This document shows positions 3,041 through 57,645 of a stretch of DNA of 64,000 nucleotides, one piece after another. The translations under genes and the position numbers were made by a program. The first letter of the stretch is position 1. Each line of letters opens with the position of its first letter. Source of the stretch: an uncultured Anaeromyxobacter sp. (GTDB lineage Bacteria; Myxococcota; Myxococcia; Myxococcales; Anaeromyxobacteraceae); assembly GCA_903874275.1 (NCBI GenBank), contig CAIQRS010000178.1, forward strand, positions 1-64,000. The letters run 5' to 3'. Under the pieces are notes generated by a model that did not search any database, was not told the origin of the DNA, and saw only the letters and a program-made list of their open reading frames with translations.

Positions 3041-3046
3041 CGCCGC

Positions 3047-4426: not shown

Positions 4427-4448
4427 TCTCCCGGGCAGGGGATCCGGA

Positions 4449-5198: not shown

Positions 5199-5201
5199 AC
5201 G

Positions 5202-6735: not shown

Positions 6736-6824
6736 CACGTTCTCCTGGCTGGATGTGGAGCGGCGGGCCAGGCGGATCGGCTCGTCGCGCGTGCGTGGCA
6801 GGGATCGCACCATGGCATGAAGTG

Positions 6825-6859: not shown

Positions 6860-6912
6860 GAGATGCATGGATCGGCCGGCCTCGGCGCTGCGTCTCCGGA
6901 TCCGGGATCGGC

Positions 6913-7368: not shown

Positions 7369-7502
7369 CCTTCCTCCTCGGCAACCGCCGATCCATCGCA
7401 TCTTGCCCTTCGAGGCGACATCTTGACACGGCCCGGGGTGACGCATCGCCCCCCGGTGTGCTCTATTCCGCCTCCGGACCCGTGCCCGCCTGGAGGTAGA
7501 AC

Positions 7503-8825
7503 GTGCTTCTTCTCCGTGAACTCGCCGCCGCCGCCGCCTCGGTCGTTCCCGAGGCAGCCCTTCCGGGAGGCCCGACACTTGCGGGTGTGCCCATCGAGTT
7601 CTTCCTCTTCGGCCTGACCCTGCTCGGCGTGGCCCTCTTCCACGCCCACACCCTCAAGGTGGCCCTCTCGGGGCTGGTGGCCATCGCGCTCTTCAAGATC
7701 CTCTTCTCCGGGTTCAAGTCCGGCCCCGGCGTGCTGGGCTTCGCCTCCCACCTCGGGCACGAGTGGGTGACGCTCGCCAACCTCTTCGGCCTGCTCATGG
7801 GGTTCGCGCTCCTCTCCCGCCACTTCGAGAAGAGCCACATCCCGGTCATCCTGCCGAAGTACCTTCCCGACGACTGGAAGGGCGCCTTCGTCATGCTGGT
7901 GATGGTCTTCGTGCTGTCGAGCTTCCTCGACAACATCGCCGCCGCCCTCATCGGCGGCGCCATGGCTCACCAGCTCTTCCGGGCCAAGGTGCACATCGGC
8001 TACCTGGCCGCCATCGTGGCCGCCTCCAACGCCGGCGGTGCGGGGAGCGTGGTCGGCGACACCACCACCACCATGCTCTGGATCGCCGGGGCCTCGCCCG
8101 TCCAGGTCCTCGACGCCTACGTGGCCTCCTTCGGGGCGCTGGTGATCGCCGGGATCCCCGCCTCCATGTGGCAGCACAAGTACTCCCCCATCCTGAAGGA
8201 CGCGCACGCCCACACCCACGTGGACTGGAAGCGCATCTTCATCGTGGGGACGATGCTCGTCTTCGCCATCGTCACCAACGTGATCATCAACGTGCGCTTC
8301 CCGGCTGCAGCCGACCACTTCCCCTTCATCGGCGTGGCGGTCTGGGTGGCCCTCGCCCTCACCGTGAAGGTGCGGCGCCACGACTGGGAGGTGCTCCCCG
8401 AGACCTTCAAGGGGTCGCTCTTCCTGCTGTCGCTCGTGGTCTGCGCCTCGATGATGCCGGTGGAGAGCCTCCCGACGGCGTCCTGGCAGACCACGCTCGG
8501 CCTGGGCTTCCTCTCCGCCGTGTTCGACAACATCCCGCTCACCGCGCTCGCCATCAAGCAGGGCGGCTACGACTGGGGAATGCTGGCCTACGCGGTGGGC
8601 TTCGGCGGCTCCATGGTCTGGTTCGGCTCCTCGGCGGGCGTGGCGCTCTCCAACATGTACCCGGAGGCCAAGTCGGCCGTGAAATGGGTCCGCCACGGCT
8701 GGCCGGTCATCATCGGCTACGTGGTCGGCTTCGGCCTCATCCTGTCCATCGTGGGCTGGAACCCGCAGCCCCTGGCGCGGGACGTGCCGGCGCCTGCCCC
8801 GTCGAGCGGCCGCATCATGCGCTAG
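7503..8825 (+). CDS. Ion-transporter superfamily permease (NhaD/citrate-transporter-like)
   Basis: A 440-residue inner-membrane carrier with roughly eleven hydrophobic segments. It has the two-fold internal repeat of the IT superfamily: SSFLDNIAAAL in the first half and SAVFDNIPLTALAI in the second, each followed by a Gly/Ser-rich hairpin (SNAGGAGSVVGDTT and GFGGSMVWFGSS). The DN pair in each half is typical of NhaD-type sodium/proton antiporters and related citrate/arsenite permeases. A His-rich loop (DAHAHTHVDW) lies mid-protein. The start is a GTG with GGAGGT upstream. The substrate cannot be read from sequence; a Na+/H+ role is the best guess. Confidence 0.75.
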   Translation: MLLLRELAAAAASVVPEAALPGGPTLAGVPIEFFLFGLTLLGVALFHAHTLKVALSGLVAIALFKILFSGFKSGPGVLGFASHLGHEWVTLANLFGLLMGFALLSRHFEKSHIPVILPKYLPDDWKGAFVMLVMVFVLSSFLDNIAAALIGGAMAHQLFRAKVHIGYLAAIVAASNAGGAGSVVGDTTTTMLWIAGASPVQVLDAYVASFGALVIAGIPASMWQHKYSPILKDAHAHTHVDWKRIFIVGTMLVFAIVTNVIINVRFPAAADHFPFIGVAVWVALALTVKVRRHDWEVLPETFKGSLFLLSLVVCASMMPVESLPTASWQTTLGLGFLSAVFDNIPLTALAIKQGGYDWGMLAYAVGFGGSMVWFGSSAGVALSNMYPEAKSAVKWVRHGWPVIIGYVVGFGLILSIVGWNPQPLARDVPAPAPSSGRIMR

Positions 8826-33610: not shown

Positions 33611-34807
33611 ATGGCTCCCCGCATCCTCGCCCTCGCCGGCGCTGCCGCCCTGCTCGCCACCCTCGGCTGCGGGGGCGCCGCGCCCGACGCCCCCACCCTC
33701 GCCTCGCTCTCGCTCTCGCCCCTCGGCGTGCAGGGGGGCGAGACCTCGACCGGCACCGTGACCCTGACCGGCGTGGCCCCCGCGGGAGGCGCCGCCGTCA
33801 CCCTCTCCTCGAGCCATGCGGCGGCCTCGGTCCCGGCGACCGTCACGGTTGCCGAGGGCGCCACCGCAGCCACGTTCACCGTGGCGACGGCCCCCATCTC
33901 CGCCGACGTGACGGCCACCATCTCGGCCGTCCACGCCGGGATCACGCGGACCGCCACCCTCACCATCAGCCTGACTCCCTGTGCGCTTCGCACGCCAGGC
34001 GCACAGTGGCTCGCCTTCTCCTCCAAGCGCACCGGCGTCTACGACATCTACGCCATGCGCGCCGACGGCACCTGCCTCACCCAGGTGACGAGCGACGCGG
34101 CCGACGACCTCTTCGCCACCTGGTCGCCCGCCGGGACCATCGCCTACATGAGCGCGCGCAGCGGCAGGATGCAGGTCTACGTCCGCGACTTCACGAGCGG
34201 CGCCGATCGCCTCCTCGACGTGGGCGATCTCACCGCCACCTCCCCGGCCTTCTCGCCCGACGGGCGGTTCGTCGCCTTCGAGGGATATGTACCGGGAGTC
34301 ACCGCCGTCTCCGACGTCTACGTCGTCCCGGCGGCGGGCGGCGCCCCGGTGAAGCTCACCAGCAGCCAGAGGTACAGCGCGGGGCCGGCCTGGTCCCCCG
34401 ACGGCACGACCATCTACTTCGTCTCCAACCGGGTGAGTGGCTACAACGCCTGGTCGGTTCCCGCCGCCGGCGGCGCGGAGACCATGATTCCCGGCACCAC
34501 GGGCCTCCTCGGGCGCCCTGCCACGACGCCGGACGGCACGGGCATCGTGTACACCCTCCCCGCCGCCGGGGCCGCCTTCAGCAAGGTGGTGGTCCAGACC
34601 CTCTCGTCCGGTGTCGTTCGGACGGTGAGCAGCCAGGCCGACGGGGAGCCCACCGTAGACCGCACCGGCGCGCAGATGGTCGTCACGTCCTTTCGCGGCG
34701 GCAACGCCGACCTCTGGCTCCTCGACTCCGCCACGGGCGCCGAGGTGCGCCAGTTGACGACCAACGCCGGGATCGACGGGGCGGCCGCGTTCGGGCCGTT
34801 CCCCTGA
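33611..34807 (+). CDS. TolB-like beta-propeller lipoprotein
   Basis: A 398-residue exported protein. The N-terminus has a hydrophobic signal ending LLATLGC (lipobox Cys about residue 20), then an Ig-like region to about 130 (repeated VTLTG / TVTVAEGATAA words), then several WD40/TolB-type blades with WSPAG, FSPDGRF, WSPDGTTIYFVSNR and so on. It probably sits on the outer membrane. TAGAAT lies six bases before the ATG. It is just upstream of the peptide cluster, but membership is not certain. Confidence 0.75.
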   Translation: MAPRILALAGAAALLATLGCGGAAPDAPTLASLSLSPLGVQGGETSTGTVTLTGVAPAGGAAVTLSSSHAAASVPATVTVAEGATAATFTVATAPISADVTATISAVHAGITRTATLTISLTPCALRTPGAQWLAFSSKRTGVYDIYAMRADGTCLTQVTSDAADDLFATWSPAGTIAYMSARSGRMQVYVRDFTSGADRLLDVGDLTATSPAFSPDGRFVAFEGYVPGVTAVSDVYVVPAAGGAPVKLTSSQRYSAGPAWSPDGTTIYFVSNRVSGYNAWSVPAAGGAETMIPGTTGLLGRPATTPDGTGIVYTLPAAGAAFSKVVVQTLSSGVVRTVSSQADGEPTVDRTGAQMVVTSFRGGNADLWLLDSATGAEVRQLTTNAGIDGAAAFGPFP

Positions 34808-34919
34808 ACTCGCCGGTCCCCGTCGCACCTCCATTCGCGCGCCCCATTCGGGCTCGACCTAAATGGGTGTTTCGCGGACACTTCCCGTGAGAGAGTAACC
34901 ATTTTCGAGGGGTGAACGC

Positions 34920-35096
34920 ATGAAAGTCGTGTCCGCGCGCGAAGCGCGACCTGTCGAGCCGCACGAGGTCGGGGATGGCGCGGAAGCGCGCTCCCGGCCT
35001 GTCTACCAGCCTCCGCGAATCGTGAAGAAGCGCCCCGTGTCGAGGGCCACGCTCTTCACCGGTTCGGGCCCGGACACCGGCGGCGTCGTGGGGTAG
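34920..35096 (+). CDS. Candidate RiPP precursor peptide (lasso-type leader)
   Basis: A 58-codon ORF behind GAGGGG. The leader is charged, then YQPP at 29-32, I34, T44 and a C-terminal Gly/Ser/Thr-rich segment ending in GGVVG. If cleavage follows L45, Tyr is -17, Pro -14, Ile -12 and Thr -2, the spacing known for lasso leader recognition. The core would be 13 residues starting at F46 with Asp (D52) at position 7, suitable for a ring. There is no Cys. No known cyclase lies nearby, so a radical-SAM product is the alternative. Product and cleavage are inferred. Confidence 0.7.
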   Translation: MKVVSAREARPVEPHEVGDGAEARSRPVYQPPRIVKKRPVSRATLFTGSGPDTGGVVG

Positions 35097-35152
35097 TGGC
35101 CAGTCCACCGCCGAAACGCGAATCGGTCCCTGGACACCGCGGGAGAGACAAG

Positions 35153-36598
35153 ATGAAGCGATTCCTCGTCGCAGCGCTCGTGCTCTCCGGATGCGCCCCG
35201 CAGGCGCCCAAGGAGCCGCCACTGCCCCCCGGAATGGTCACGATCGCGACCTTCACGGCGGCGGTCGATCCGGTGGCGGGAACCATCTCGATCCGCACGA
35301 ACCCCACCGCCGCCGGGCGAGCGAGCGGCATGACCGGACTGACGATCACCGAGGTGACGGTCGAGAACGACCCGGACGCGCCGGTGCCGCCCAACCCCTG
35401 GTTCAACGAGACCGCGGACCGCGGCTGCGGCGCGGGGACGGCGACCTGGGGTGCGTACGTGAAGCTCACCTCGCTCCTCGACGAGCCCACGTCGCTGGGT
35501 GGTGTCTACGCCGAGATCACCCATTTCGCCGGACCGCCCGGGAGCGAGGTCTGCAACGCCGCACCCGCGCCGGACGGCCTGGATACCCTCGGGTACGGGC
35601 TCTGGTCCTACGAGACGATCGGGTCGCTCGGGACGGCCAGCGTCCCGTGGACGTTCCACCACGTGTCCGCCACGGAGTTTCGTTTCGGGGGGAGGATCGT
35701 CGCCGCGAAGATCGAGGAGATCATCTGGCTCGAGCTGGCCTATCCCGGGGAGCAGTCGATCGGCGACAACGGAACCAACGTCGTCTACGCGTCGAAGGAG
35801 ACCCCGACCCTGCGGTTCGTGAACTACGACGGAACGAGCGGAAGGGGTTCCGTGCCCCTTCCCGCTTATGCGATCACGGTGGCGCCGGACGTTGATGCCG
35901 GTTTGATCTGGTTCACGACCGAGGGAGCCCCCGGAGCGGAGTTTGTGGGGTACACCCTGAGCGACGGAACTGCAGCCTTGTTCGCCACGGAGGGAGGCAC
36001 CGGTCTCGGGGCCTTGGTGCCGGACCCGACGGTCTTAGGAAGGGCTTGGTACCGATCTGAGTCAGACAACTACATCCGAAGCATCGACGCGGGCTTTCTG
36101 TTCCCCGTCCTTGGCACCCCGATCGACACCCCCTTCGCTCCCTACGCGATGGCCGTCGGCCCGGCGCCCGAATACTACCTCTACGTCACGTCCCGGACGG
36201 ACGACCGGATCATGGTCTACACGACCGGTGCGGCCGGCGGTGATCTCGTCGATCAGTGGGCGGTGGCGCCGGGGTGCACGGGGCCCGTCTCCATCGTCCT
36301 CGGCCAGGACTCGAAACTCTGGATCGGCTCCAAGGGGGACGACGCCGTGTGCACCATGACCACCGCGGGAGGTTTCGCCCAGGTGAACACCGCCGTCGGT
36401 CCCCGGCAGCTCGCCGTCGGTCCGGACGGCAAAGTCTGGGTCGCCGCGTTCGGCCCGAACCAGGTGGCGCGCATGGACGCGGCCGGTCCCGGCTACCGGA
36501 TCACGCTGCCCACGAACGCCGGCGCCTCCGGCCTGGTGGCCGGTGGCGGGTTCCTCTGGGCGACGAACGACGACGGGCTCTACCGGATCCTCTACTGA
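35153..36598 (+). CDS. Vgb-like beta-propeller lipoprotein in RiPP cluster
   Basis: A 481-residue exported protein. MKRFLVAALVLSGC is a lipoprotein signal with GGGAGA upstream of the ATG. The N-terminal ~200 residues form a beta domain rich in Cys pairs, and the rest shows NHL/Vgb-like propeller repeats (VGPRQLAVGPDGKVWVAAFGPNQ). A gap of 56 bases separates it from the precursor. It could bind or export the peptide or give self-protection; Vgb proper is a streptogramin lyase. Codons around 35840-36140 are less GC-rich than the neighbours. Confidence 0.7.
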   Translation: MKRFLVAALVLSGCAPQAPKEPPLPPGMVTIATFTAAVDPVAGTISIRTNPTAAGRASGMTGLTITEVTVENDPDAPVPPNPWFNETADRGCGAGTATWGAYVKLTSLLDEPTSLGGVYAEITHFAGPPGSEVCNAAPAPDGLDTLGYGLWSYETIGSLGTASVPWTFHHVSATEFRFGGRIVAAKIEEIIWLELAYPGEQSIGDNGTNVVYASKETPTLRFVNYDGTSGRGSVPLPAYAITVAPDVDAGLIWFTTEGAPGAEFVGYTLSDGTAALFATEGGTGLGALVPDPTVLGRAWYRSESDNYIRSIDAGFLFPVLGTPIDTPFAPYAMAVGPAPEYYLYVTSRTDDRIMVYTTGAAGGDLVDQWAVAPGCTGPVSIVLGQDSKLWIGSKGDDAVCTMTTAGGFAQVNTAVGPRQLAVGPDGKVWVAAFGPNQVARMDAAGPGYRITLPTNAGASGLVAGGGFLWATNDDGLYRILY

Positions 36599-36635
36599 GA
36601 GGTCGCTCCCGGGACGCATGCGGTAGACTCGACCG

Positions 36636-37658
36636 ATGTCCCGATGGATCGTCTTCCACGTCACCGAGCGGTGCGGCCTCACCTGCCAGCACTGCCTGCG
36701 CGATCCCGGGGCGAGGCCCGTGGACCTGCCGCTCGCGGTGGTCGAGAAGGCGCTCGACGAGGCGGGGGCGCTCCATGGCATCCGCCACGCCGGATTCACG
36801 GGCGGTGACCCGCTGCTCTGGCCGCACCTGGCCGGGGCCGTCGACGCCGTGGCGCGGCGCGGCTTCACCTGGCACCTGGTGACGAGCGGGCGCGGCTTCG
36901 ACCGGCTCCTGGCGCTCCTCGACCAGGCGCCCCCACGTCGGGAGGCCCTCTCCGTCCTGGACTTCTCGGTCGACGGCGCCACCGAGGCCACCCACGACGC
37001 CATCCGCGGCACCGGCAGCCACCGCGACGCCATGACCGCCATCGCCGCGTGCAGCGCGCGGGGCCTGCCCTTCGCCGTCCAGATGACGCTCAACGCCCGC
37101 AACGAGGGGGAGCTCGAGCAGGCCGCGCTCGCCGCCGCCGAGCTGGGGGCGAAGCAGGTGAGCTTCGCGATGACCAATGCCACCGGCAGCCACGCCGACC
37201 GGGACCTCTACCTGTCCCCCGCCGCGCTGGACCGCATCCGCGACCGGGTGGAGCGTCTCTCGACCCTGCTCCACGTCCCGGTGACTCTCGCCGAGGGGTT
37301 CCGCCGCGGCTGGCGCTTCCACGTCTGCGAGCCGTTCCGCAGCGAGGTGCTGCACGTCACCCCGCACGGGATGCTCAACCTCTGCTGCAACCACTCCGGG
37401 GTGCCCGGGAGCGACGAGGACGTGGTCGCCGACCTGGCCGTGGAGAGCCTCGCGGATGGCCACCGGAAGCTGCTCGGTCTCATCCACCGCCTGGAGCGGG
37501 AGCGGCTCGACGCCATCGCCGCCGCGCCCGGGCAGAAGCCCGGCTGGGACGACTTCCCCTGCAATCGCTGCCTGGCGCGGCTGGGGAAGCCGCACTGGGT
37601 GGACGGGGGCAGCGCCGGGCCGCGGGCCATCCGGGCCGCGGAGGTGGGGAAGGAATGA
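36636..37658 (+). CDS. Radical SAM enzyme with SPASM-like C-terminus
   Basis: A 340-residue enzyme with CGLTCQHC near the N-terminus (C13, C17, C20, the CxxxCxxC cluster) and FTGGDPLLWPHL matching the GGE-type SAM motif. The C-terminal part has extra Cys (CEPF, NLCCNHSG and FPCNRC) typical of auxiliary [4Fe-4S] (SPASM/twitch) domains, which mark peptide-modifying radical SAM enzymes. TAGACT lies six bases before the ATG. Its stop overlaps the protease gene start (ATGA). The modification is unknown. Confidence 0.85.
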   Translation: MSRWIVFHVTERCGLTCQHCLRDPGARPVDLPLAVVEKALDEAGALHGIRHAGFTGGDPLLWPHLAGAVDAVARRGFTWHLVTSGRGFDRLLALLDQAPPRREALSVLDFSVDGATEATHDAIRGTGSHRDAMTAIAACSARGLPFAVQMTLNARNEGELEQAALAAAELGAKQVSFAMTNATGSHADRDLYLSPAALDRIRDRVERLSTLLHVPVTLAEGFRRGWRFHVCEPFRSEVLHVTPHGMLNLCCNHSGVPGSDEDVVADLAVESLADGHRKLLGLIHRLERERLDAIAAAPGQKPGWDDFPCNRCLARLGKPHWVDGGSAGPRAIRAAEVGKE

Positions 37659-38353
37659 CCGCGTCGCGCACCGCCCTGCGCTTCCTCGCGCCCCGCTCGC
37701 CGGGTGCGCCGGCGGCAGGACTGCGCCGGGCCGCGCTGGTCGCGCTCATGCCGCGGCTGCTCGAGCGCAGCCACATGGTGGACCTGCTCGAGATGCTGGA
37801 CGAAGGGGCCTCGCCCGGCGCGGGCGACGACGCCCGGAAGGTCGTGGACGCGCTCCGGCGACGCCCGACCACCTGCCTCTACCGGTCGCTGGCCGGGTTT
37901 GCGTCGCTTCGCGCCGCCGGCGAGCCGGTGCGGCTCGTGGTGGGGGTGCGGGTCGAGCAGGGCGAGGTGGTTGCACACGCCTGGCTGGAGAAGGATGGCG
38001 AGCCGGTGGGGGAGCCCACCGACCCCAGGCCGCGCTTCGCCGAGGCATTCTCGTATCCACCGGAGGGTACCGTGGCGACTGGTCCATCGAGCAGGGACGT
38101 CATCCTCACCGAGCTGAAGGACGGCACAGGAGTGCTCCTCGACCTGCGCACCAAGTTCTACTTCACCCTCAACGACACCGGCGTCGCGGTCTGGAAGCTG
38201 ATCGCGGCAGGGGAGGCGGCCGAGGCGCGGACGCTGGCCGAGCGCATCGCTCGCGACTTCGACGCGCCGTCGGTGGAGGCGGTGGAGGGCGACGTGAAGG
38301 CGCTCCTGGAGGAGTTCGCGGCGGAGGGGCTCCTGTCGGAGGAGAAGCGCTGA
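37655..38353 (+). CDS. Lasso-B2-type leader protease fused to PqqD-like domain
   Basis: A 232-residue protein. Residues about 25-125 match the transglutaminase-like B2 protease (PF13471) of lasso pathways: C74 in TTCLYRS, H108 in VAHAWLE and D123 as probable acid. Residues about 150-230 form a PqqD-like domain (VLLDLRTKFYFTLNDTGVAVW), the family that binds precursor leaders. The order B2 then PqqD is reversed from the usual B1-B2. It is translationally coupled to the radical SAM gene. Role: binding and cleaving the leader. Confidence 0.8.
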   Translation: MTASRTALRFLAPRSPGAPAAGLRRAALVALMPRLLERSHMVDLLEMLDEGASPGAGDDARKVVDALRRRPTTCLYRSLAGFASLRAAGEPVRLVVGVRVEQGEVVAHAWLEKDGEPVGEPTDPRPRFAEAFSYPPEGTVATGPSSRDVILTELKDGTGVLLDLRTKFYFTLNDTGVAVWKLIAAGEAAEARTLAERIARDFDAPSVEAVEGDVKALLEEFAAEGLLSEEKR

Positions 38354-39435
38354 TGGTCCGTGCGGGCGACGCCGCGGAGCAGCACTTCGTCCGCGAGGCC
38401 TTGCTCGCCCTGGGATCGGATCGGCCCGGTCTCCGGGACGCGGCCCGCGCCGTGCGGAGCTGGGACCGGGTGCTGGCCATCGCCGCCGCGGGGTCGGTGG
38501 CCGAGTCGATCTGGTCCGGCGTGTCGCTCCGAGGGGTGGAGAGGGAGATCCCCGAGCCGGCCCGGACGTCGCTCCGGGAGGCGCACGCCGGGGCGACGGC
38601 GCGCAACGCGCTGCTCCTCTCCGAGGCCGCCGAGATCCAGGCGGCGTTCACCGCGGCGGGGATCGAGTCGGTGATCCTGAAGGGGCCGGGGCTGCTCGTG
38701 GCGCATTACCCGGACATCGGGGCGAGGCACGTGGCCGACGTGGACATCCTGGTGAGGGGGGGAGAGGTCGCGCGGAGGGCGAATGCCATCGTTCGGGCGA
38801 GGGGAGGGCAACCGAAATTGAAACCCCTCGTTCCGATGGAAGAGGCGGAAGATGCTCACCACCATCTGGAGCCCCTTGTGACCCCCCGCGGTGTGGTCTT
38901 CGAGATCCACACCCGGGTCCCGTGGGCCGACCCCAGCGATCCGGACGTCGAAAACATCTTCGGGCACACCCGAAGCGTCTCCTGGCAGGGGTGGGAACTT
39001 CGAATTCCATCCGCCCCCGACTTGGCGGTGATGCTTTGTCGTCACGTGTTCGATTACCACGGAGGGCTGAAGGAGTACCTCGCTCGCCACCTGGCCGACA
39101 TGGCCGTCCTGATGGGCACCGGAGCCGCCGTGTGGAGCGACCTGGAGGTTCGGGTCGGATCCCGATCGAGCCTCGTAGCCTTGACGGCATCGCGCTTCCT
39201 GGTCGAGGATGGCCGGGTCGGATCCGCAGCCAGGCGCCACGTCCTCGGTGTTCGGACGCGTGTCTGGGTCAACCTGATCACAAGGCAGGAACCGCGTGTG
39301 GTGATGAGAGCGGTCTTCCCACCGCGATCGTTCATGTCGGGGCGATACGGCGTCCATCCCACGTCGAGGATGCTGCCCCTCCTCTACCTCTGGCGGCCGG
39401 TCCGCGGAGCTTGGCGCTTCGTGACCGGTCGCTGA
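38353..39435 (+). CDS. NTP_transf_5-type nucleotidyltransferase family protein
   Basis: A 360-residue protein of the NTP_transf_5 family (PF14907) common in lasso and related RiPP clusters. LKGPGLLVAHYPDIGARHVADVDILV (about 106-133) carries the paired Asp residues of the nucleotidyltransferase fold. The stop of the upstream gene overlaps its start by one base. Codons after about 38790 abruptly include many A/T-ending triplets, unlike the first third, so this half may have been replaced by recombination. Precise role is unknown. Confidence 0.75.
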   Translation: MVRAGDAAEQHFVREALLALGSDRPGLRDAARAVRSWDRVLAIAAAGSVAESIWSGVSLRGVEREIPEPARTSLREAHAGATARNALLLSEAAEIQAAFTAAGIESVILKGPGLLVAHYPDIGARHVADVDILVRGGEVARRANAIVRARGGQPKLKPLVPMEEAEDAHHHLEPLVTPRGVVFEIHTRVPWADPSDPDVENIFGHTRSVSWQGWELRIPSAPDLAVMLCRHVFDYHGGLKEYLARHLADMAVLMGTGAAVWSDLEVRVGSRSSLVALTASRFLVEDGRVGSAARRHVLGVRTRVWVNLITRQEPRVVMRAVFPPRSFMSGRYGVHPTSRMLPLLYLWRPVRGAWRFVTGR

Positions 39436-39439
39436 TCCG

Positions 39440-40393
39440 ATGCGCCTCCTCCTCCACGGCATCCAGCTCTCGGTCGAGGGCGACCCACGCGCGGTCGCCG
39501 CGGCGACGGAACTGCTCGGCGCTCTCCCTCCCGGCGGCGCCGATGCCCCGCCCGACCTCCGCCTCGTCCTCCGACCGAGCCCACCGCTGCAGCGCCCCGC
39601 CGGGCCGCGCCGCTTCTACCACGGCATCCTCGACTGCCACGCCGACGGCCAGGACCTCGTCCTCTGGGACGGCCACTCCCGCGCGCGCATCGCGGCGGGA
39701 GGCGCGCTCATCGAGGTCGAGGTCGCCGAGGAGTCCCTGCGCGACGGCTACATCTTCTCCCACGTGCTGCTCCTCGTGGCGCTCGTCCTGGCGCTGCGGT
39801 GGCGGGGGATCTTCCACCTCCACGCCGGCGCGCTCGCCGCGCCCGACGGCCGGGGCATCCTGGTCGCCGGCGGAGCGGGCGCCGGAAAGAGCACCCTCAC
39901 CCTCGCGCTCCTCGAGGCGGGATGCTCCTACCTGGGAGACGACGCCGTCTTCCTCTCCACCCGCGGCGGGGACCTGGCCGTGCTCGCGCTTCCGCGCCCC
40001 TTCCACGTGGCGCCGCGCACCGCCGGCGCCTTCCCGCGCGTCGGCGCCCTCCTCTCCGACCTGCTCCCGGCCGGGGAGAAGCGCCGGCTCGACCCCCGCC
40101 AGGCCTGGCCGGGCCGGGAGCGCCCCGGGATGGGGGCCCCGTCGCTGATCCTCCTGCCGCGCGTCTCCGGCGAGCGGACGACGCTCGTCGAGCAACTGTC
40201 CTCGGCCGAGGCCATGGGAGCGCTCATCGAGTCGAGCACGCTGGTCGTCGTGGACGGCCTGCCCGGCGGGGCCGAGCACCTCGAGGTTCTCCGCCGGGTC
40301 GCGGACCGCGCCCGCGCGTTCCGGGTGGAGTCGGGGCTCGACCTGCTCGAGGCGCCGGCCGAGACCGTCGATCGACTGCTGGGGAGCACCTGA
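39440..40393 (+). CDS. HPr kinase-like protein of RiPP clusters
   Basis: A 317-residue protein with the P-loop GGAGAGKSTLTLALLE near residues 144-160, then LGDDAVFL and a Leu/Glu-rich tail. In lasso-type clusters such HprK-like kinases can phosphorylate the precursor or are of unknown role (paeninodin kinase is the known example). Four bases separate it from the previous stop. The catalytic His and Asp of HprK were not placed, so activity is unproven. Confidence 0.75.
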   Translation: MRLLLHGIQLSVEGDPRAVAAATELLGALPPGGADAPPDLRLVLRPSPPLQRPAGPRRFYHGILDCHADGQDLVLWDGHSRARIAAGGALIEVEVAEESLRDGYIFSHVLLLVALVLALRWRGIFHLHAGALAAPDGRGILVAGGAGAGKSTLTLALLEAGCSYLGDDAVFLSTRGGDLAVLALPRPFHVAPRTAGAFPRVGALLSDLLPAGEKRRLDPRQAWPGRERPGMGAPSLILLPRVSGERTTLVEQLSSAEAMGALIESSTLVVVDGLPGGAEHLEVLRRVADRARAFRVESGLDLLEAPAETVDRLLGST

Positions 40394-48381: not shown

Positions 48382-49149
48382 TTACACCCGTCCCAGCAAC
48401 CGCAGCACCCCGTCGATGAAGGTGATCGGATGCGGCGGACACCCCGCCACCCACAGGTCCACCGGGATCTCCGGCACCCCCGGCATCCCGTTCGACTGCA
48501 CCGGGCTGTCCCGGAAGATCCCCCCCGAGCACGCGCACGCCCCCACCGCGATCACCAACCTCGGCGCCGGGACCGCCTCCCAGGTCTTCAGCAAGGCCTC
48601 CCGCATGTTCACCGACACCGGCCCGGTCACCACGATCCCGTCCGCGTGGCGCGGCGAGGCCACGAAGGCCACGCCGAAGCGGGACATGTCGAACTGCACG
48701 TTCCCCGCGGCGTTCAGCTCCGCCTCGCAGCCGTTGCACCCTCCCGCCGACACCTGCCGCAGCCGCAGCGACCTGCCGAAGAGCTTGCGCGCCCTCTCGT
48801 CGAGCGCGGCGGCGAGCAGCGGCGCACTCCCGTTCACCGCCAGTCCCTCCCGCGCCCGCGCCGCCAGCCGGTGGTCGCCGGTGAACCGGATCGCCCCCGG
48901 GCTGGCCTCCTCGCAGAGCCCGCAGAAGGTGCAGCGCCCCAGGTCGATGGCCAGGCCCGGACCGCCCGGATCGCGCACCGCCTCGGTGGGGCAGACGGCC
49001 GCACCGGCGCGCCCTCCGTCGCCCTCCCGGGCGTCCAGCACCGGGAGCCCCCGGAAGCGCTCCGGGAAGCGGGCCGGCCCCTCGGGGTAGGCCACCGTCT
49101 GCCGGCCGAAGCCGAGGCGGAACTGGAGGATGCCGGGGATGCCGTCCAT
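48382..49149 (-). CDS. Ferredoxin-like domain fused to NuoB/HyfI-like small subunit
   Basis: A 255-residue protein. The N-terminal part has CPTEAV (C53) and CTFCGLCEEASP (C73, C76, C79) where the fourth Cys of a [4Fe-4S] site is Ser83. From about residue 130 a NuoB-like domain has CNGC (C138, C141), GACAC (C205, C207) and AGCPP (C237), which bind the N2-type cluster. It is the small-subunit/ferredoxin part of a Hyf-like complex (HycF-HycG fused). Upstream partner genes overlap or abut. Confidence 0.8.
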   Translation of the reverse strand: MDGIPGILQFRLGFGRQTVAYPEGPARFPERFRGLPVLDAREGDGGRAGAAVCPTEAVRDPGGPGLAIDLGRCTFCGLCEEASPGAIRFTGDHRLAARAREGLAVNGSAPLLAAALDERARKLFGRSLRLRQVSAGGCNGCEAELNAAGNVQFDMSRFGVAFVASPRHADGIVVTGPVSVNMREALLKTWEAVPAPRLVIAVGACACSGGIFRDSPVQSNGMPGVPEIPVDLWVAGCPPHPITFIDGVLRLLGRV

Positions 49150-50666
49150 CAGAGGTCGTGCCCGCAGTAGGAGAGGTTGAAGCTCTTGTTGCAGAGCGGG
49201 AAGTCGGAGATCTGCTCGCCGCGCATCGCCAGGGCGAGCCCCATCCAGTTGTGGAACGAGGGGTCCACCAGCTTGTAGCGGAGGAAGCTGCCGTCCCGGT
49301 CGGTCTCCACCACGTGGCAGAGCTCCCCGCGCCAGCCCTCCGTGAGCGAGACCACGAGCCGCCCCGGGCGGGGAAGCGGGCAGGGGGCGCGGACCGGCCC
49401 GCCGGGCAGCGCGCGGAGCTGGCGCAGCACGAACTCCACGCTGCGCTCCGCCTCGAGCCTGCGCACCCAGCCGCGCGCGAAGACGTCGCCGGTCTCGCCG
49501 GTGACCACCGGCACGTGGAGGAAGCGGAAGACGCCGGTGGCATGGTCGCGCCGGACGTCGCGGGAGACGCCGCAGGCCCGCGCCGCCGGCCCCACCAGGC
49601 CGAGCTCGGTGCAGGTCTCGCGGCTGACCACGCCGGTGCCGTCGAAGCGGTTGCGCACCGAGGGTGACTCGAAGAGGAGGCGCGTGGCCCCCTCCACCCG
49701 CTCCCAGGCCTTCTGGACCTTGTCGGCCAGGCGCGAGGCCGCGTCGGCGTCGAGGTCGAAGCGGGTGCCTCCCGGCACGACCAGTCCGCGCCCGAAGCGG
49801 TTGCCGCAGATCTCGGCCAGCGCGTTCAGGAAGTCGGCGCGCAGCGCGCCGCAGGAACTGGCCGTGGGCAGGAAGCCCACGTCGCCGGCCATCATCCCCA
49901 GATCCCCGACGTGGTTGGCGAGCCGTTCCAGCTCCAGCGCCACGCCGCGCAGCACCGACGCCCGGGCCGGGATCTGGAACCCGGCCAGCGCCTCCACCCC
50001 GTTGGCGTGGGCGATGGCGTTCCCCACCGCGGTGTCCCCGGCCACCGACTCGAGGAGCGTCACCGTGCGCCGGTCCGGCCCTCCGACCAGCAAGGCCTCG
50101 ACCCCGCGGTGCTGGTAGCCCAGGACGATCTCCAGCGTGAAGACGTGCTCGCCGTGGCACTGGAAGCGGAAGTGTCCGGGCTCGATGACGCCGGCGTGCA
50201 CCGGCCCCACCGCCACCTCGTGCACCTCCTCCCCCTCGACGCGGAAGAAGGGGTAGTCGCCGGGGATGGTGGTGGGCCGCGCCACGCGCCCCCAGGGATC
50301 GACGTTCGGATTCACGGGCGGCTCGAAGCGGAGCGGCTTCAGCCAGGGGTGCCCCTCCGGCCGCACGCCGAACTGCTCGAAGATCTCCCGCTCGAAGGCC
50401 TGGATGGACGGGCACTCGGCGCCGAGCGAGGGCCACGAGGCGCCCACCCGGCAGGAGAGCACGCCCAGCCGCCCCTGGGCGTCGTCGGCCAGCACCGCGG
50501 TCACCCGGGTGCGCTGCCCGTCGGTGCGCCCCGAATAGCTCGAGACCCGCGCCCCGGCGGCGATGGTGTCCGCGACGATCTGCTGGAACTCGTCCACGGG
50601 GAGGACGGGGACGTCGTCGGCGTCGAAGGCCTCGGCGTTCCAGGCCTGGAGGAGTCGGGTCGTCAT
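49149..50666 (-). CDS. NuoCD/HyfG-like large subunit lacking NiFe ligands
   Basis: A 505-residue protein. About 20-160 is NuoC-like and the rest NuoD/hydrogenase large-subunit-like (GYQHRGVEALLVG, GNAIAHANGVEALAG). The first CxxC that binds NiFe is absent (VAGDTAVGN in its place). At the C-terminus only C492 and C501 with x8 between and H503 remain (PLCNKSFNLSYCGH) instead of DPCxxC. It is therefore probably not an H2-activating subunit but an Ehr-type relative. Confidence 0.85.
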   Translation of the reverse strand: MTTRLLQAWNAEAFDADDVPVLPVDEFQQIVADTIAAGARVSSYSGRTDGQRTRVTAVLADDAQGRLGVLSCRVGASWPSLGAECPSIQAFEREIFEQFGVRPEGHPWLKPLRFEPPVNPNVDPWGRVARPTTIPGDYPFFRVEGEEVHEVAVGPVHAGVIEPGHFRFQCHGEHVFTLEIVLGYQHRGVEALLVGGPDRRTVTLLESVAGDTAVGNAIAHANGVEALAGFQIPARASVLRGVALELERLANHVGDLGMMAGDVGFLPTASSCGALRADFLNALAEICGNRFGRGLVVPGGTRFDLDADAASRLADKVQKAWERVEGATRLLFESPSVRNRFDGTGVVSRETCTELGLVGPAARACGVSRDVRRDHATGVFRFLHVPVVTGETGDVFARGWVRRLEAERSVEFVLRQLRALPGGPVRAPCPLPRPGRLVVSLTEGWRGELCHVVETDRDGSFLRYKLVDPSFHNWMGLALAMRGEQISDFPLCNKSFNLSYCGHDL

Positions 50667-50668
50667 CT

Positions 50669-52099
<1,431 letters not shown>

Positions 52100-52105
52100 C
52101 GCGTC

Positions 52106-52759
52106 CTAGTCCTTGAGCGACGAGAGCGCGTCGGTGTCGAGGGAGGCGAACTCCCGGTTGATCTGGAACATGACGATGCCCATCACGAAGACCGCGGCCA
52201 GCAGGTCGAGCAGCACCCCGGCCTCCACCATCACCGGCATGAAATCGGTGAGCAGGAGCCCGAAGACGAAGACCCCGTTCTCGAGCACCAGGAAGCCCAG
52301 CACCTGGGTGACCGCCTTGCGCCGGCTCACCACGAGCAGGAGCCCCGTCCACACGGTGGCCAGCGCCGTGGGCACCAGGAAGGGGTGCATCTCGTTGGTG
52401 GGCAGCGGGAGCCCGCGGGAGAAGGCGAAGGAGAGCACCACCCCCACGCCGCCCAGGATCATCGAGGGCACGTAGCCCACCAGGGGCTCCATCTCGCGCC
52501 GGATGGCCATCTCGCGGATGGCCCGGAACATGAGCCAGGGGATGAGGACGGCCTTGATGAAGAAGGCGCCCCCGGCGACCACCAGCATGTGGCCGACGCT
52601 GTGGCCGGAGCCGGTGAGCAGGAGCGCCAGCAAGGAGAGCAGCGCCCCCTGCAGCGCCACGGCGCGGATGGCGGCCCCCAGCCGGCTCGAGGCCAGCAGG
52701 AAGAGGTCGAGGACCACCACCAGGATGAAGGCCATGTCGGTCCAGGCGCCCACGTTCAC
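52106..52759 (-). CDS. HyfE-like membrane subunit
   Basis: A 217-residue protein with about seven helices, matching HyfE (a NuoK-like module in hydrogenase-4-type complexes). It has a FFIKAVLIPWLMFRAIREM loop and a charged C-terminal tail. The start is a GTG overlapping the stop of the HyfC gene by four bases. Confidence 0.8.
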   Translation of the reverse strand: MNVGAWTDMAFILVVVLDLFLLASSRLGAAIRAVALQGALLSLLALLLTGSGHSVGHMLVVAGGAFFIKAVLIPWLMFRAIREMAIRREMEPLVGYVPSMILGGVGVVLSFAFSRGLPLPTNEMHPFLVPTALATVWTGLLLVVSRRKAVTQVLGFLVLENGVFVFGLLLTDFMPVMVEAGVLLDLLAAVFVMGIVMFQINREFASLDTDALSSLKD

Positions 52760-53667
52760 CTCAGGAGAAGGACCAGCGCGAAGACCGAGAGGACCGAGGC
52801 GCCCACCAGCATCTGCGGGACCCGGGTGAGCCGGAGGCGCGCCATCACCGACTCGACCACGCCGACCAGGATGGCGAAGCCGATGAGCTCGACCACGAAG
52901 ACCGCCTCGGCGGCCCAGATCCCGGCGATCCCCGCGTCGGCGACCAGCCGCACGAAGAGGGCGCCGAAGAGGAAGAACTTGAGGGAGGCGCCGTAGAGGA
53001 TGAAGGCCAGGTCGGGGCCGGAGTGGTCGAGCACCATGACCTCGTGGATCATGGTCAGCTCGAGGTGGGTGTTGGGGTCGTCCACCGGGATGCGGGAGTT
53101 CTCGGCCAGCGCCACCACGAAGAGGGCGATGGCGGAGAGGAGGAGGGCCGGGGCGGCGGCGCGCCAGGCCGGGGCCAGCGCGGGCCCGAGCATCCCCGAG
53201 AGGGAGAGGGAGCCGGTGGCCCGGGCCATCACCACCAGCACCAGGAAGAGCGCCGGCTCGGCCATGCTGGCGAAGGAGACCTCGCGGGCCGCCCCCATGC
53301 CCTCGAAGGACGAGCCGGTGTCGAGCGCGGCCAGCGCGGTGGCGAAGCGGGCCAGCGCCAGCAGGTAGGCGAAGAGGACGAAGTCGCCGGCGAAGGTGAA
53401 GAGGGCGGGCTGGCCGGCCACCGGGAGCATGGTCCCGGCGGTGGCCACGGCGGCCAGGCCGACGATGGGGCCGGCCCGGAACACCCAGGTCGTCGTCCGG
53501 CTGTAGACCGCCCCCTTCTGGAGGAGCTTCCAGACGTCGAAGTAGAGCTGGAGGAGCGGCGGCCCCTGCCGTCCGGCGAAGATGGCCTTCACCCGGTTCA
53601 CCACCCCGAGGAGGAAGGGGGGCAGGACGAGGAGGATCCCGATCTGGAAGAGCGCGCGCAGGATCAT
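52756..53667 (-). CDS. HyfC/NuoH-like membrane subunit
   Basis: A 303-residue protein with about eight helices, matching NuoH/HycD. VKAIFAGRQGPPLLQLYFDVWKLLQKG is the quinone-loop/junction motif, and DDPNTHLELTMIHEVMVLDHSGPDL carries the conserved acidic loop. It links the peripheral and membrane arms. ATG start. Confidence 0.85.
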   Translation of the reverse strand: MILRALFQIGILLVLPPFLLGVVNRVKAIFAGRQGPPLLQLYFDVWKLLQKGAVYSRTTTWVFRAGPIVGLAAVATAGTMLPVAGQPALFTFAGDFVLFAYLLALARFATALAALDTGSSFEGMGAAREVSFASMAEPALFLVLVVMARATGSLSLSGMLGPALAPAWRAAAPALLLSAIALFVVALAENSRIPVDDPNTHLELTMIHEVMVLDHSGPDLAFILYGASLKFFLFGALFVRLVADAGIAGIWAAEAVFVVELIGFAILVGVVESVMARLRLTRVPQMLVGASVLSVFALVLLLR

Positions 53668-53668
53668 G

Positions 53669-55657
53669 TCACCACCAGAGTAGTCTCCAGGCGAGCAGCG
53701 CCACCAGCGTGGCGAGCACGAGCAGGGCCTGGAGGTGGAGCCTCCCGGCGATGAGGCCGCGCACGCGGGAGGTGGCGGAGATGTAGTCGCGGACGGCGGG
53801 AAGGAGCGCCAGGTCGAGAACCGCCTCGCGGGGCTCGGTGGAGAAGCGGGCCCCGGTGGGGAACGGACCCTTCGGCGGCGTGAAGCGGACCCGCGGGAGG
53901 AGCACCCAGCGGAAGCCCTGGTTCAGGATCTGGGCGAAGGAGCTGCCGGTGTAGGCCATCCGCGCGGTGGGGTACGCGTAGCCGCAGGACCAGGTCTCAG
54001 CAGCGGTGCCGGCGCCAAGCCGGCGCCGCAAGAGCCACAAACCGGCCACCGTCCCGACGAGCACGAAGGCCACCCCGCTCACCCACGTCGCCGTCCCGCT
54101 CGCCGCCCCGGCCGCCCCGGCCAGCCGGGCGGGATCCATCCCCGACCACGCCGCGGCACCCCGCGCCAGCGGCGCGATGAGGAGCGCCGGTGCGAGGCCG
54201 ACGATCACGCAGGCCCCGGCCAGCGCCGCCATCGGGACCAGCATCACCCCCGGTGACTCCTCCGCCCGCGCCGCATCCTTCGTCCGGGGGTTCCCCAGGA
54301 AGACCGAGCCCTGCACCTTCACGAAGCAGGCCGCCGCCAGCGCGCCGACGAGCGCCAGCACCGGGGCCACCAGCACCGCGAAGGAGGCCCGGTCGAGGGG
54401 AGCCAGCTCCAGGGCCGACACCGCGCCCAGGGCCACGAACCACTCCGAGACGAAGCCGTTGAGCGGGGGGAGCCCGCTGATGGCGGCGGCGCCGACCAGG
54501 AAGAGCCCCGCGGTCCAGGGCATGGCGCGGGAGAGCCCCCCCAGCCGCTCGACGTCGCGCGTCCCGGTGGCGTGCTGCACCGAGCCCGCGCCCAGGAAGA
54601 GCAGCGACTTGAAGAGCGCGTGGTTCACCACGTGGAGGGCCGAGCCGGCGAAGCCGAGCAGCACGAGCCCCGGCTCCCCGCGGGACCGCCCCAGCATCGC
54701 GATCCCCAGCCCCATGGTGATGATCCCGATGTTCTCCACCGAGTGGTAGGCCAGCAGCCGCTTGAGGTCGTGCTGGGCGAGCGCCAGCGCCACCCCCAGC
54801 ACGCCGGAGACCCCGCCCAGCACCATGAGGACCGCGCCCCAGGAGGCGGGCGGGGCCTCGAAGAAGCCGGCCGTGCGGAAGAGGCCGTAGATCCCGGTCT
54901 TGAGCAGCACCCCGGACATCACCGCCGAGACGTGGCTGGGCGCGGCGGCGTGGGCCCCGGGCAGCCAGAAGTGGAGCGGCACCAGGCCGGCCTTGAGCCC
55001 GAACCCCAGGAGCGCCAGCAGCGCCAGCCACGAGGCCGCGGCGCCGCCGGAGCCGAGCCCGCCCCAGGCCGAGAAGTCGAAGCTGCCCCGGGCGCTCCCC
55101 ACCGAGGCGAAGAAGGCGAAGATCGCGAAGGTGCCCACGTGGGCGGCGGCCAGGTAGACCCAGGAGGCCTTCTGCGCGTCCCGCCGGTCGGGTTCGGCGC
55201 GCACCAGGAAGAACCCACAGAGCGCCATCACCTCCCAGGCGAAGAGGAAGAGCAGTGCGTTGTCGGCCAGGACCACCAGCGCCATGGAGCCGGTGACCAC
55301 GCCGTACCAGAGCTGGAGATTCACCGCATGTGAACCGTGCTCCTCCTGGGGCCAGTAGCCGATCCCGAAGACCGCGCCCAGGGCCGGGACGCAGAGGATG
55401 GGGAGGAGGAAGAGGGCCGAGAGGGCGTCGAGCCGGAAGGCCAGGGAGGCGTGGGGCTGGTTCCAGGAGAGCTGGATCACCGAGGCCGGGGAGCCCGCCA
55501 GCACCGGGACGGCCGCGGCGATCCCCAGCACCGCCGCGAGGCAGAGCGCGCCCGCCGAGAGCCGCTGGCCGAGGTCGGGGCGGTCCCGCAGCGCCAGGCC
55601 CAGGAGGCCGCTCGAGGTGGCGAGCACCACCGCGGCGAGGGCGAGCGCGCCGGTCAC
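53669..55657 (-). CDS. HyfB-like antiporter-type membrane subunit A
   Basis: A 662-residue NuoL/HyfB-type subunit with about fifteen helices. LLFLFAWEVMALCGFFLV, GFGLKAGLVPLHFWLPGAHAAAPSHVSAVMSGVLLKTGIYGL and DLKRLLAYHSVENIGI carry the charged residues of the channel. The HyfB-type end (TWSCGYAYPTARMAYTGSSFAQ) is present. The start GTG overlaps the stop of the next subunit by four bases. Confidence 0.85.
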   Translation of the reverse strand: MTGALALAAVVLATSSGLLGLALRDRPDLGQRLSAGALCLAAVLGIAAAVPVLAGSPASVIQLSWNQPHASLAFRLDALSALFLLPILCVPALGAVFGIGYWPQEEHGSHAVNLQLWYGVVTGSMALVVLADNALLFLFAWEVMALCGFFLVRAEPDRRDAQKASWVYLAAAHVGTFAIFAFFASVGSARGSFDFSAWGGLGSGGAAASWLALLALLGFGLKAGLVPLHFWLPGAHAAAPSHVSAVMSGVLLKTGIYGLFRTAGFFEAPPASWGAVLMVLGGVSGVLGVALALAQHDLKRLLAYHSVENIGIITMGLGIAMLGRSRGEPGLVLLGFAGSALHVVNHALFKSLLFLGAGSVQHATGTRDVERLGGLSRAMPWTAGLFLVGAAAISGLPPLNGFVSEWFVALGAVSALELAPLDRASFAVLVAPVLALVGALAAACFVKVQGSVFLGNPRTKDAARAEESPGVMLVPMAALAGACVIVGLAPALLIAPLARGAAAWSGMDPARLAGAAGAASGTATWVSGVAFVLVGTVAGLWLLRRRLGAGTAAETWSCGYAYPTARMAYTGSSFAQILNQGFRWVLLPRVRFTPPKGPFPTGARFSTEPREAVLDLALLPAVRDYISATSRVRGLIAGRLHLQALLVLATLVALLAWRLLWW

Positions 55658-57645
55658 GGGAAGCGCCCCCGCAAGGCCAGCATGGCGAGCAGCGCCACCA
55701 GCGTGATCAGCGTGTAGAGGAGCTGGAGGTTGAGCCGTCCGGCCTGGAACCGGCGCAACCGGCTCATCCGGTCGCCCAGGACGCGGAAGAGGGGGTCGAA
55801 GAGGCGGGTGCGGGCGGGGTCCTGGGAGTCCGTCCGGAAGGCGCCCTTCCCGGGGAAGACGCCGCGGGGGGCCTGGAGGTGCACGCGCGGACGGAGCGCC
55901 CGCGGGACCAGCGCGGTGAGGAATGCCTGCGAGTAGGAGGAGGCCGTGTACTCCATCCGCGAGGTGGGGGCCGTGAACCCGCAGCCCCACGTAGCAGCGA
56001 CGGCGCCGCCTCCCAGGCGCCGGCGCAATGCGATGAGCCCGAGCACGACCGCGATGAGCACGCCCACCACCACCCTCGGCGCCGCCCCCATCTCCCCCGC
56101 CGGCCCGAGCACCCGCGCCGCCTCTCCCATCCCCAGCTGCACCGCCACCGGCGTCACCATCCGCAACGGCAGCGCCGGGAAGAGGCCGAACAGCACGCAA
56201 CCCGCCGCCAGCAGCGCGAGCGGCACCCACCCGGCAGGCCCCACCTCCCGCGCGGCCGCGGCCTCCGGGCTGCGCGGCTCCCCCAGCAGCGCCACGCCGG
56301 CGATGCGCGTGAACGAGATGGCCGCGATGGCCCCCACGAGCGCCAGGGCCGCCACCGCCAGGTACGCCACCAGCCCCGACGCCCCCGAGGCCGCGGCCGC
56401 CCCGGCGCGCAGGAGCCCCAGGTAGAGCAGCCACTCGGAGGCGAACCCGGAGAGCGGCGGCAGCGCGGCCAGGGTGCCGAGCCCCACCAGGAGGAGGGCC
56501 CCGGTCACCGGGAGTCGCGCCAGCAGGCCGCCCATCTTCTCCAGGTCCTGCGAGTGGGCGGCGTGGACCAGCGTGCCCGCTCCCAGGAAGGCGAGCCCCT
56601 TCATGAGGGCGTGGTTCCAGACGTGGAAGAGCGCGCCGCCCATCCCCAGCGCCGCCACCACCGGGTGCCCGGCGGCCCCGGCGGCCACGGCCAGCCCCAC
56701 CCCGAGGACCACCAGCCCCACGTTCTCGACGCTGGAGTAGGCCAGCGCCCTCTTGATGTCACCTTGACCGAGGGTGAGGGTGATGGCCACCAGCGCGCTG
56801 CCCAGGCCGATGGCGCCGAGCAGGAGCCCGTACCCCACGCCGAGCGGGGGGAGGAAGCCGAGCAGGCGCAGGAGCCCGTAGACGCCGGTCTTGATCATCA
56901 CCCCCGAGAGGAGGGCCGAAACGTGGCTGGGCGCGGCGGGATGGGCCTCGGGCAGCCAGACGTGCAGCGGGACCAGGCCGGCCTTGGTCCCGAAGCCCAC
57001 CAGACCGAGGGTGAAGAGGAGCCAGGGGGCCGCCGCGCCCGCTCCCCGCAGCGCCTCGAAGCGGACGAAGTCGAAGCCGCCGGCCTCCCGCCCCAGCAGG
57101 AGGAACAGGGCGAAGAGGAAGGCCGTGCCCACGTGGGAGGCCACCAGGAAGACGAAGCCGGCGCGGCGAACTTGAAGCTTCTCGTCGTCGAAGGTGACGA
57201 GCACGAAGGAGGCGATGGTCATCACCTCCCAGGCCACCAGGAAGAGCACCCCGTCGGCGGCGGAGAGGACCAGCGAGATGGCGACGAGCAGCAGGCCGTA
57301 GGCGAGGACGAACCCGCCCATGGGCCGCCGCCCCACGTACGGCTTCATGTATCCCGCGCCGAACGCCGAGGCGGGGACGGCCACCGCGAAGAGGGCGGCC
57401 TGGAAGAAGGCGGAGAGGGGATCGAGCCGGAGGTGGAAGGAGCCGAGCGGCTCCGACCAGGGGAGGACCAGATCGGCCGGTGGGGCGCCGAGGAGGAAGG
57501 GCAGGACCGAGGCCAGGCCGACGAGGCTCCCGGCCACGGCGGCGACCGAGCCCACGCGGAGCGCGAGCGCCGGACGGCGGGCCAGGAGCGGGCCGGCCAG
57601 GGCGCCAGCGGCCAGGATCAGAAGCGCCGCCAGGTACGGGGTCAC
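55654..57645 (-). CDS. HyfB-like antiporter-type membrane subunit B
   Basis: A 663-residue NuoL/HyfB relative, about as divergent from the preceding subunit as separate complex subunits usually are. Markers are LFLVAWEVMTIASFVLV, GFGTKAGLVPLHVWLPEAHPAAPSHVSALLSGVMIKTG, DIKRALAYSSVENVGL and TWGCGFTAPTSRMEYTASSYSQ. Start is a GTG. Having two HyfB-type subunits plus HyfF means three antiporter-like modules in one operon. Confidence 0.85.
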   Translation of the reverse strand: MTPYLAALLILAAGALAGPLLARRPALALRVGSVAAVAGSLVGLASVLPFLLGAPPADLVLPWSEPLGSFHLRLDPLSAFFQAALFAVAVPASAFGAGYMKPYVGRRPMGGFVLAYGLLLVAISLVLSAADGVLFLVAWEVMTIASFVLVTFDDEKLQVRRAGFVFLVASHVGTAFLFALFLLLGREAGGFDFVRFEALRGAGAAAPWLLFTLGLVGFGTKAGLVPLHVWLPEAHPAAPSHVSALLSGVMIKTGVYGLLRLLGFLPPLGVGYGLLLGAIGLGSALVAITLTLGQGDIKRALAYSSVENVGLVVLGVGLAVAAGAAGHPVVAALGMGGALFHVWNHALMKGLAFLGAGTLVHAAHSQDLEKMGGLLARLPVTGALLLVGLGTLAALPPLSGFASEWLLYLGLLRAGAAAASGASGLVAYLAVAALALVGAIAAISFTRIAGVALLGEPRSPEAAAAREVGPAGWVPLALLAAGCVLFGLFPALPLRMVTPVAVQLGMGEAARVLGPAGEMGAAPRVVVGVLIAVVLGLIALRRRLGGGAVAATWGCGFTAPTSRMEYTASSYSQAFLTALVPRALRPRVHLQAPRGVFPGKGAFRTDSQDPARTRLFDPLFRVLGDRMSRLRRFQAGRLNLQLLYTLITLVALLAMLALRGRFP

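Follow-up and report, generated by a model that had tools for sequence, protein, structure and literature searches.

A cyclase-less gene cluster of Anaeromyxobacter as a putative radical SAM peptide maturation locus with a lasso-type front end

Which product is made by a gene cluster that encodes the leader recognition and leader cleavage functions of a lasso peptide pathway, and carries a gene for a radical S-adenosylmethionine (SAM) enzyme in place of the lasso cyclase? This question is raised by a cluster of ribosomally synthesized and post-translationally modified peptide (RiPP) genes in an uncultured Anaeromyxobacter sp. (GCA_903874275.1). The window, i.e. the whole stretch of 64,000 nucleotides that was analyzed, belongs to contig C178 (CAIQRS010000178.1) of this genome (G000; 5.07 Mb, 285 contigs, 98.9% complete). 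For comparison, mainly two congeners (G001 and G003) and a member of another genus of the same bacterial family, whose genome is a single contig of 6.7 Mb (G022), were used. A tblastn search with the precursor peptide disclosed three further loci, and a profile of the four sequences (A1) was then run over 195 genomes of the phylum. Homologues of the radical SAM enzyme were searched in 146 genomes and regarded as strong at E < 1e-70. Protein families were assigned by Pfam and NCBIfam.

We class the cluster as a variant of radical-SAM RiPP biosynthesis, which works like the front half of a lasso pathway. It was not classed as a lasso peptide cluster because two defining features, a macrolactam cyclase (PF00733/NF033535) and an Asp or Glu at core position 7-9 that is kept throughout the family, were not found. 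With a probability of about 0.7, we regard it as the locus at which a radical-SAM RiPP pathway with a lasso front end encodes its maturation enzymes, whose product contains no macrolactam lasso ring and which acts in trans on scattered precursors. The initial annotation, a RiPP cluster with lasso-type leader, B2 protease, lasso companions and radical SAM enzyme but without cyclase, is thus supported.

Cluster layout and precursor family

The following elements were assigned, RRE denoting a RiPP recognition element:

33611-34807, plus strand: TolB/PD40 propeller lipoprotein with lipobox LGC and Ig-like N-terminus, 5' boundary of the cluster (PD40, 3e-27)
34907-34912, plus strand: ribosome-binding site GAGGGG of the precursor gene (from the sequence)
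34920-35096, plus strand: precursor peptide of 58 amino acids, member of a family of 15 (dN/dS about 0.12)
35004-35021, plus strand: lasso-type recognition motif YQPPRI, residues 29-34 (-17 to -12); Y, PPR and I/L kept in 15/15 precursors (positions according to PMC10368454)
35055-35093, plus strand: predicted core FTGSGPDTGGVVG, following Thr44 (-2) and Leu45 (-1); ATLF[ST]G and GG[VL][IV] kept in 15/15, cut site deduced from lasso precursors
35153-36598, plus strand: lipoprotein with conserved N-terminal beta-sandwich (structure model) and Vgb/NHL-type propeller (lipobox LSGC; Vgb_lyase, 7e-15)
35153-35728, plus strand: N-terminal domain shared by the precursor-linked lipoproteins (alignment A6; invariant C14 as lipid site, C92 and C134)
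36636-37658, plus strand: radical SAM maturase with CX3CX2C and Twitch/SPASM-like C-x13-G-x4-CC...CxxC, without fused RRE (Radical_SAM, 6e-18)
37655-38353, plus strand: N-terminal B2 leader peptidase fused to C-terminal PqqD-type RRE (Transglut_core3, 1e-16; PqqD, 5e-13; lasso_biosyn_B2, 53.9 bits, cut-off 33)
38350-39435, plus strand: NTP_transf_5 nucleotidyltransferase-like protein, N (PF14907, 1e-36), adjoining the kinase also in L028, L030 and L117
39440-40393, plus strand: HprK-like kinase, K, forming the 3' boundary (HprK-related kinase A, 4e-9, below the family cut-off; invariant H126/H128, K150, D167 and D168)

The six genes from the precursor to the kinase were confirmed in position and order, and the families claimed for them were upheld by Pfam and NCBIfam. 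The annotated extent, however, has to be revised, since the TolB-like lipoprotein gene at the 5' end had been overlooked, as had the precursor-lipoprotein pairs scattered elsewhere. Including the TolB-like gene, a homologue of which lies within or beside the cluster in L026, L028, L029 and L117, the full cluster spans positions 33611 to 40393.

The 58-codon open reading frame (ORF) had been proposed as the precursor gene. It is preceded by the ribosome-binding site, has 14 homologues (E 5e-30 to 4e-18), and the median ratio of nonsynonymous to synonymous substitutions (dN/dS) over the 29 conserved codons indicates purifying selection. Thus, we concluded that it is a real, selected gene, as proposed. 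Mismatches per codon position amounted to 0.12/0.08/0.37. All 15 precursors originate from four genomes of one bacterial family: seven from G000 (C178, C25, two on C10, C116, C109 and C122), five from G001, two from G003 and one from G022. A match on C163 (E 0.014) and all profile matches outside the four genomes (E 7e-4 or worse) were taken as chance. An NCBIfam match for the precursor was not found, nor did the DNA upstream of the 15 genes disclose a common promoter.

Every precursor contains Y-x-P-P-R-[IL]-x-K-[KR]-R-x3-R-A-T-L-F-[ST]-G followed by GG[VL][IV], with constant spacing between Y and F. If Phe46 is set as core position 1, Tyr29, Pro32, Ile34 and Thr44 fall at -17, -14, -12 and -2 and coincide with the leader positions reported for lasso peptides (PMC10368454). 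The lasso leader pattern (YxxPxL plus Thr at -2) is therefore present in 15/15 sequences with exact spacing, position -12 being I or L. The acid needed for a lasso ring behaves differently. Cores include FTGSGPDTGGVVG of the window and FTGSGPDGGGVIGSG, FTGSGPNTGGVIGSG, FTGSGPSSGGVITAAG and FSGQSSQTNAGGLIANQAGT; among these, three have N or S in place of the ring acid, and FSGQSSQTNAGGLIANQAGT lacks it altogether. Across the family, D7 occurs in ten precursors, D9 in that of G022, N7 in two and S7 in one, while the precursor on C25 of G000 has none. An acid at core position 7-9 is thus not a family feature, though the window precursor carries D7. Cysteine is absent from 14/15 cores. The conserved core Cys of sactipeptides and ranthipeptides is consequently lacking, and a thioether is not expected. 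Core and recognition motif are conserved to the same degree. In the usual antimicrobial RiPPs, the core is more variable than the leader.

Maturation enzymes and search for a lasso cyclase

Eight Cys residues of the radical SAM enzyme are kept (C13/C17/C20, C231-x13-G245-x4-C250-C251 and C309-x2-C312). Judged by its pattern, the C-terminal group appears to be a Twitch/SPASM-like auxiliary-cluster motif. The combination of CX3CX2C with auxiliary-cluster Cys, all invariant, in an enzyme adjoining an RRE and a precursor is that of a radical SAM RiPP system. The solved folds nearest to the structure model were SkfB, BlsE, PqqE, viperin and SuiB, matches which support the class only, the model being based on five sequences and having a predicted local distance difference test (pLDDT) score of 72. 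No RRE precedes the radical SAM core, with which the protein begins, and the enzyme would therefore depend on the PqqD domain. The radical reaction could be an epimerisation or the formation of a C-C or C-O link.

In the B2 half of the fusion protein, Cys74, His108, Glu120 and Asp123 are invariant, so that the Cys/His pair of a lasso-type B2 protease is intact. Both B2 and RRE matched the lasso models in 4/4 members of the fusion family, and the nearest PDB relative of the PqqD-type RRE was TbiB1 of a lasso pathway. The invariant residues of the kinase (His126/His128, Lys150, Asp167 and Asp168) match the His-Lys-Asp-Asp motif of lasso-tailoring kinases (PMC9266682). In the pseudomycoidin pathway, a kinase/nucleotidyltransferase pair phosphorylates and glycosylates the C-terminal Ser (PMC9266682), and BsfK phosphorylates Ser3 of its core (PMC10368454). 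For the window kinase, the conserved Thr/Ser2 and the mostly conserved Ser4 make a target in the N-terminal part of the core likelier.

The lasso cyclase model NF033535, which gave matches in 9/14 control genomes, had none in the whole of G000 or in G001. G022, although assembled into one contig, likewise yielded no lasso cyclase; its sole match passes the cut-off for a true asparagine synthase. Matches to PF00733 in G000 were rejected as cyclases, because they are fragmentary and cover profile positions 15-92 only. Thus, the absence of a cyclase noted for the window was not only borne out but extended to the entire genome, and neither did relatives' clusters reveal a flanking cyclase, while the precursor was retained in them. 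Three explanations had been offered. Within the limits of the assemblies, a cyclase at another site is excluded. Ring closure by another enzyme is weakened by the variation of D7 among paralogues. This leaves a different, radical-SAM-made peptide as the favoured option.

In G003, two proteins match the lasso cyclase best, both scoring below the family cut-off. At L100 (C64), a lasso-type cyclase is part of an HprK-C-PqqD-B2 set; at L101 (C80), another one is accompanied by HprK, by a partial ORF similar to nonribosomal peptide synthetases and by a candidate for a lasso-like precursor of 42 aa (WxxPxL). Lasso-type pathways probably exist nearby in G003, but as separate clusters.

Related loci and linked lipoproteins

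In G022, the order precursor - TolB - radical SAM - B2-PqqD - NTP_transf_5 - HprK was found. One contig of G001 carries the precursor, two lipoproteins, TolB and radical SAM up to the contig end, and a second one continues with the end of radical SAM, B2-PqqD, NTP_transf_5 and HprK. G000 itself contains a second maturation locus on C25 (L026, 7946-19109) with two radical SAM copies and the precursor with the divergent core FSGQSSQTNAGGLIANQAGT. Its genes are ordered HprK - radical SAM - acyltransferase - precursor - lipoprotein - second radical SAM - NTP_transf_5 - TolB, with B2-PqqD on the opposite strand. In G003, radical SAM, a PqqD domain and TolB-NTP_transf_5-HprK are spread over three contigs. 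Strong radical SAM homologues were confined to G000, G001, G003 and G022, the same four genomes that hold the precursors. As G022 is the sole examined member of its genus with either gene, the set must have been gained or kept together there.

An independent marker of the cluster ends was obtained from G001, in which the counterpart of the window, between ABC transporter/RHH genes and the citrate synthase gene, bears a deletion scar (L122, C179, 3358-3849; flanks 999-8805). The scar links the beginning of TolB with a point midway in the kinase gene, and we therefore regard these two genes as the boundaries. The neighbouring MsbA-type ABC transporter and RHH genes were dismissed as cluster parts, since they also occur where G001 and G003 have no intact cluster (L122 and L034) and are absent beside the G022 cluster. 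A Pedobacter locus, the only one obtained by a contig scan for radical SAM, was likewise discarded, as its 713-aa ORF shares 37 matching residues only and has no partners nearby; the scan used exact 8-residue seeds, which relatives at 60-73% identity would escape. On C10 of G000, a second HprK - PqqD - B2 trio without cyclase or obvious precursor was noticed (L097, 18203-19882), about 6-10 kb away from two precursor-lipoprotein pairs.

The N-terminal domain of the lipoprotein encoded downstream of the window precursor defines a family of 21 genes in the four genomes. Such a gene lies within 3.5 kb of 14/15 precursors, compared to 0.16 expected, and 17/21 of the family genes are linked to a precursor. 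The unlinked precursor (C157) sits on a contig of 4.8 kb. C-terminally, the lipoproteins have exchanged their domains, which are a Vgb/NHL propeller, an RCC1 propeller (L087 and L088) or DUF1554 (L090). L120 encodes an N-domain lipoprotein with a BNR/sortilin-like remainder on a contig without precursor. A convincing PDB relative for the fold of the N-terminal domain was not obtained (best template modelling scores 0.41/0.58).

The majority of the precursors reside beside an N-domain lipoprotein at loci devoid of maturation genes, and the maturation locus therefore probably serves them in trans. This assumption was corroborated by G001, for which one maturation gene set was found to face five precursors. 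Probably, the near-invariant peptide acts together with the linked lipoproteins, or its maturation takes place on their behalf. That a constant peptide with varying lipoproteins has a shared ligand or attachment role can be suggested with low confidence only.

AraC-type regulator genes stand beside the modules at L087, L091 and L094, TetR-type genes at L092 and L095. The lipoprotein N-domain was also detected (E 8e-27) in a 1975-aa protein of G130, a member of another family of the order (L123, 2631-8558); within 16 kb around it, no precursor motif was found.

Proposed pathway, alternatives and known systems

In the pathway that we propose, the C-terminal PqqD-type RRE of the B2 fusion would bind the YxPPR[IL] leader, and the recruited precursor would be modified by the radical SAM enzyme and the HprK-like kinase. 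By conservation, Phe1, Thr/Ser2 and the GG[VL][IV] tail are the foremost candidate sites, Ser4 being less conserved. Cleavage of the Leu45-Phe46 bond by the B2 half would follow, in analogy to lasso precursors that carry Thr at -2. The locus would serve in trans about seven precursors scattered in G000, each beside a surface lipoprotein. RRE guidance, the cut after Leu45, the order of steps and the action in trans are deduced from likeness to known pathways and from gene distribution.

Several findings do not favour this pathway. G003 possesses precursors and radical SAM, but only a PqqD domain and no close B2-PqqD fusion was found there. A dedicated exporter conserved with the cluster was not detected. 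The co-occurrence of the genes partly reflects shared ancestry, since three of the four genomes are congeners and G022 is the one independent point. Moreover, only 4/15 precursors lack an acid at a suitable position, so that the other ones could still form a lasso-like ring. One alternative is that the product is a lasso peptide after all, a cyclase acting in trans joining Phe1 to Asp7 and radical SAM adding a tailoring step. Leader, B2, RRE, K and N are indeed all lasso parts, Asp7 is present in the window precursor, and congener G003 carries clusters with lasso-type cyclases. Since no such cyclase was detected in G000, G001 or the single contig of G022, and since the acid is replaced in two paralogues by N, in one by S, is lost in that of C25 and has moved to position 9 in G022, we consider a lasso product improbable. 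Even a little harder to defend is the view that B2, kinase and NTP_transf_5 are relics of a decayed lasso cluster with radical SAM as an unrelated neighbour. It can draw on the cyclase-less trio of C10 and on the scar in G001, but is contradicted by the order radical SAM - B2-PqqD - NTP_transf_5 - HprK, kept in G022 and across the contig break in G001, by the invariant catalytic residues and by the purifying selection on the precursor.

Another alternative concerns the role of the product and is compatible with the proposed way of its making. Instead of being released, the peptide may serve the lipoproteins as a factor for maturation or attachment, namely as a modified tag bound or joined to their constant N-domain. 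The tight linkage of precursors and N-domain genes and the near-constancy of a peptide whose lipoprotein partners differ in fold would agree with this. As judged from gene neighbourhood, however, a co-regulated ligand and receptor would also explain the linkage, and we hold an attachment factor to be rather unlikely. Tentatively, and with more doubt than confidence, the system may be regarded as a RiPP class of its own. In such a class, a single radical SAM/B2-RRE/kinase machine acting in trans would produce a nearly constant modified peptide from many scattered genes, and each peptide would serve its partner surface lipoprotein, composed of a constant N-domain and an exchangeable propeller or other C-terminal domain, as ligand or attached cofactor. 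The near-constant core together with the varying lipoproteins points to a cellular and not to an antibiotic role.

Gene for gene, the cluster resembles bsf of Bradymonas sediminis (A, B1, B2, C, D, K and N; PMC10368454) minus C and D; BsfA has Ile at -2, whereas the window precursor has Thr. Phosphorylated lasso pathways (bsf; paeninodin and pseudomycoidin, PMC9266682) share the YxxPxL leader at -17 to -12, RRE, B2, HPr-like kinase and NTP_transf_5. Unlike them, the window cluster lacks cyclase C and transporter D, has a radical SAM enzyme instead, carries the RRE fused behind B2 and matures a nearly invariant core, which is encoded many times and varies in the ring acid. About 300 lasso-type RREs that adjoin radical SAM genes were reported among those not co-occurring with leader peptidase and cyclase (RRE-Finder, PMC7470986); like these, the window cluster pairs a lasso-model RRE with radical SAM in the absence of a cyclase, but it does encode B2, in fusion with the RRE. 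The pathways of pyrroloquinoline quinone (PQQ) and mycofactocin, with their discrete PqqD-type RRE, are alike in the short radical SAM enzyme with auxiliary-cluster Cys and the separate RRE, and the window fold is nearest to SkfB, BlsE and PqqE. They differ from the cluster, which has a lasso-type leader and a B2 protease, and the window precursor is presumably unlike PqqA or MftA. The SynChlorMet cassette (NCBIfam ScmC/D/E/F) also combines PqqD-like, HprK-like and radical SAM proteins, but scores of 58 (ScmF), 42.5 (ScmE), 20.9 (ScmC) and 13.4 bits (ScmD) stayed far below the cut-offs of 400, 400, 125 and 100. This cassette is not known to contain B2 or NTP_transf_5. In a literature search, mostly outside subscription journals, we found no description of a gene set that combines a reversed-order B2-RRE fusion, radical SAM, K and N with modular lipoproteins linked to many near-identical precursors at scattered sites. 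Judging from the cluster, leader, RRE, B2, kinase and nucleotidyltransferase may make up a portable lasso front end which can be joined to other chemistry, and the compactness of the cluster permits a direct test by expression.

Apart from the cluster, the minus strand of the window harbors an operon (48382-57645) resembling a membrane-bound (group 4-type) hydrogenase or complex-I-like module. The AT skew exceeds 0.3 over 52-58 kb of the window.

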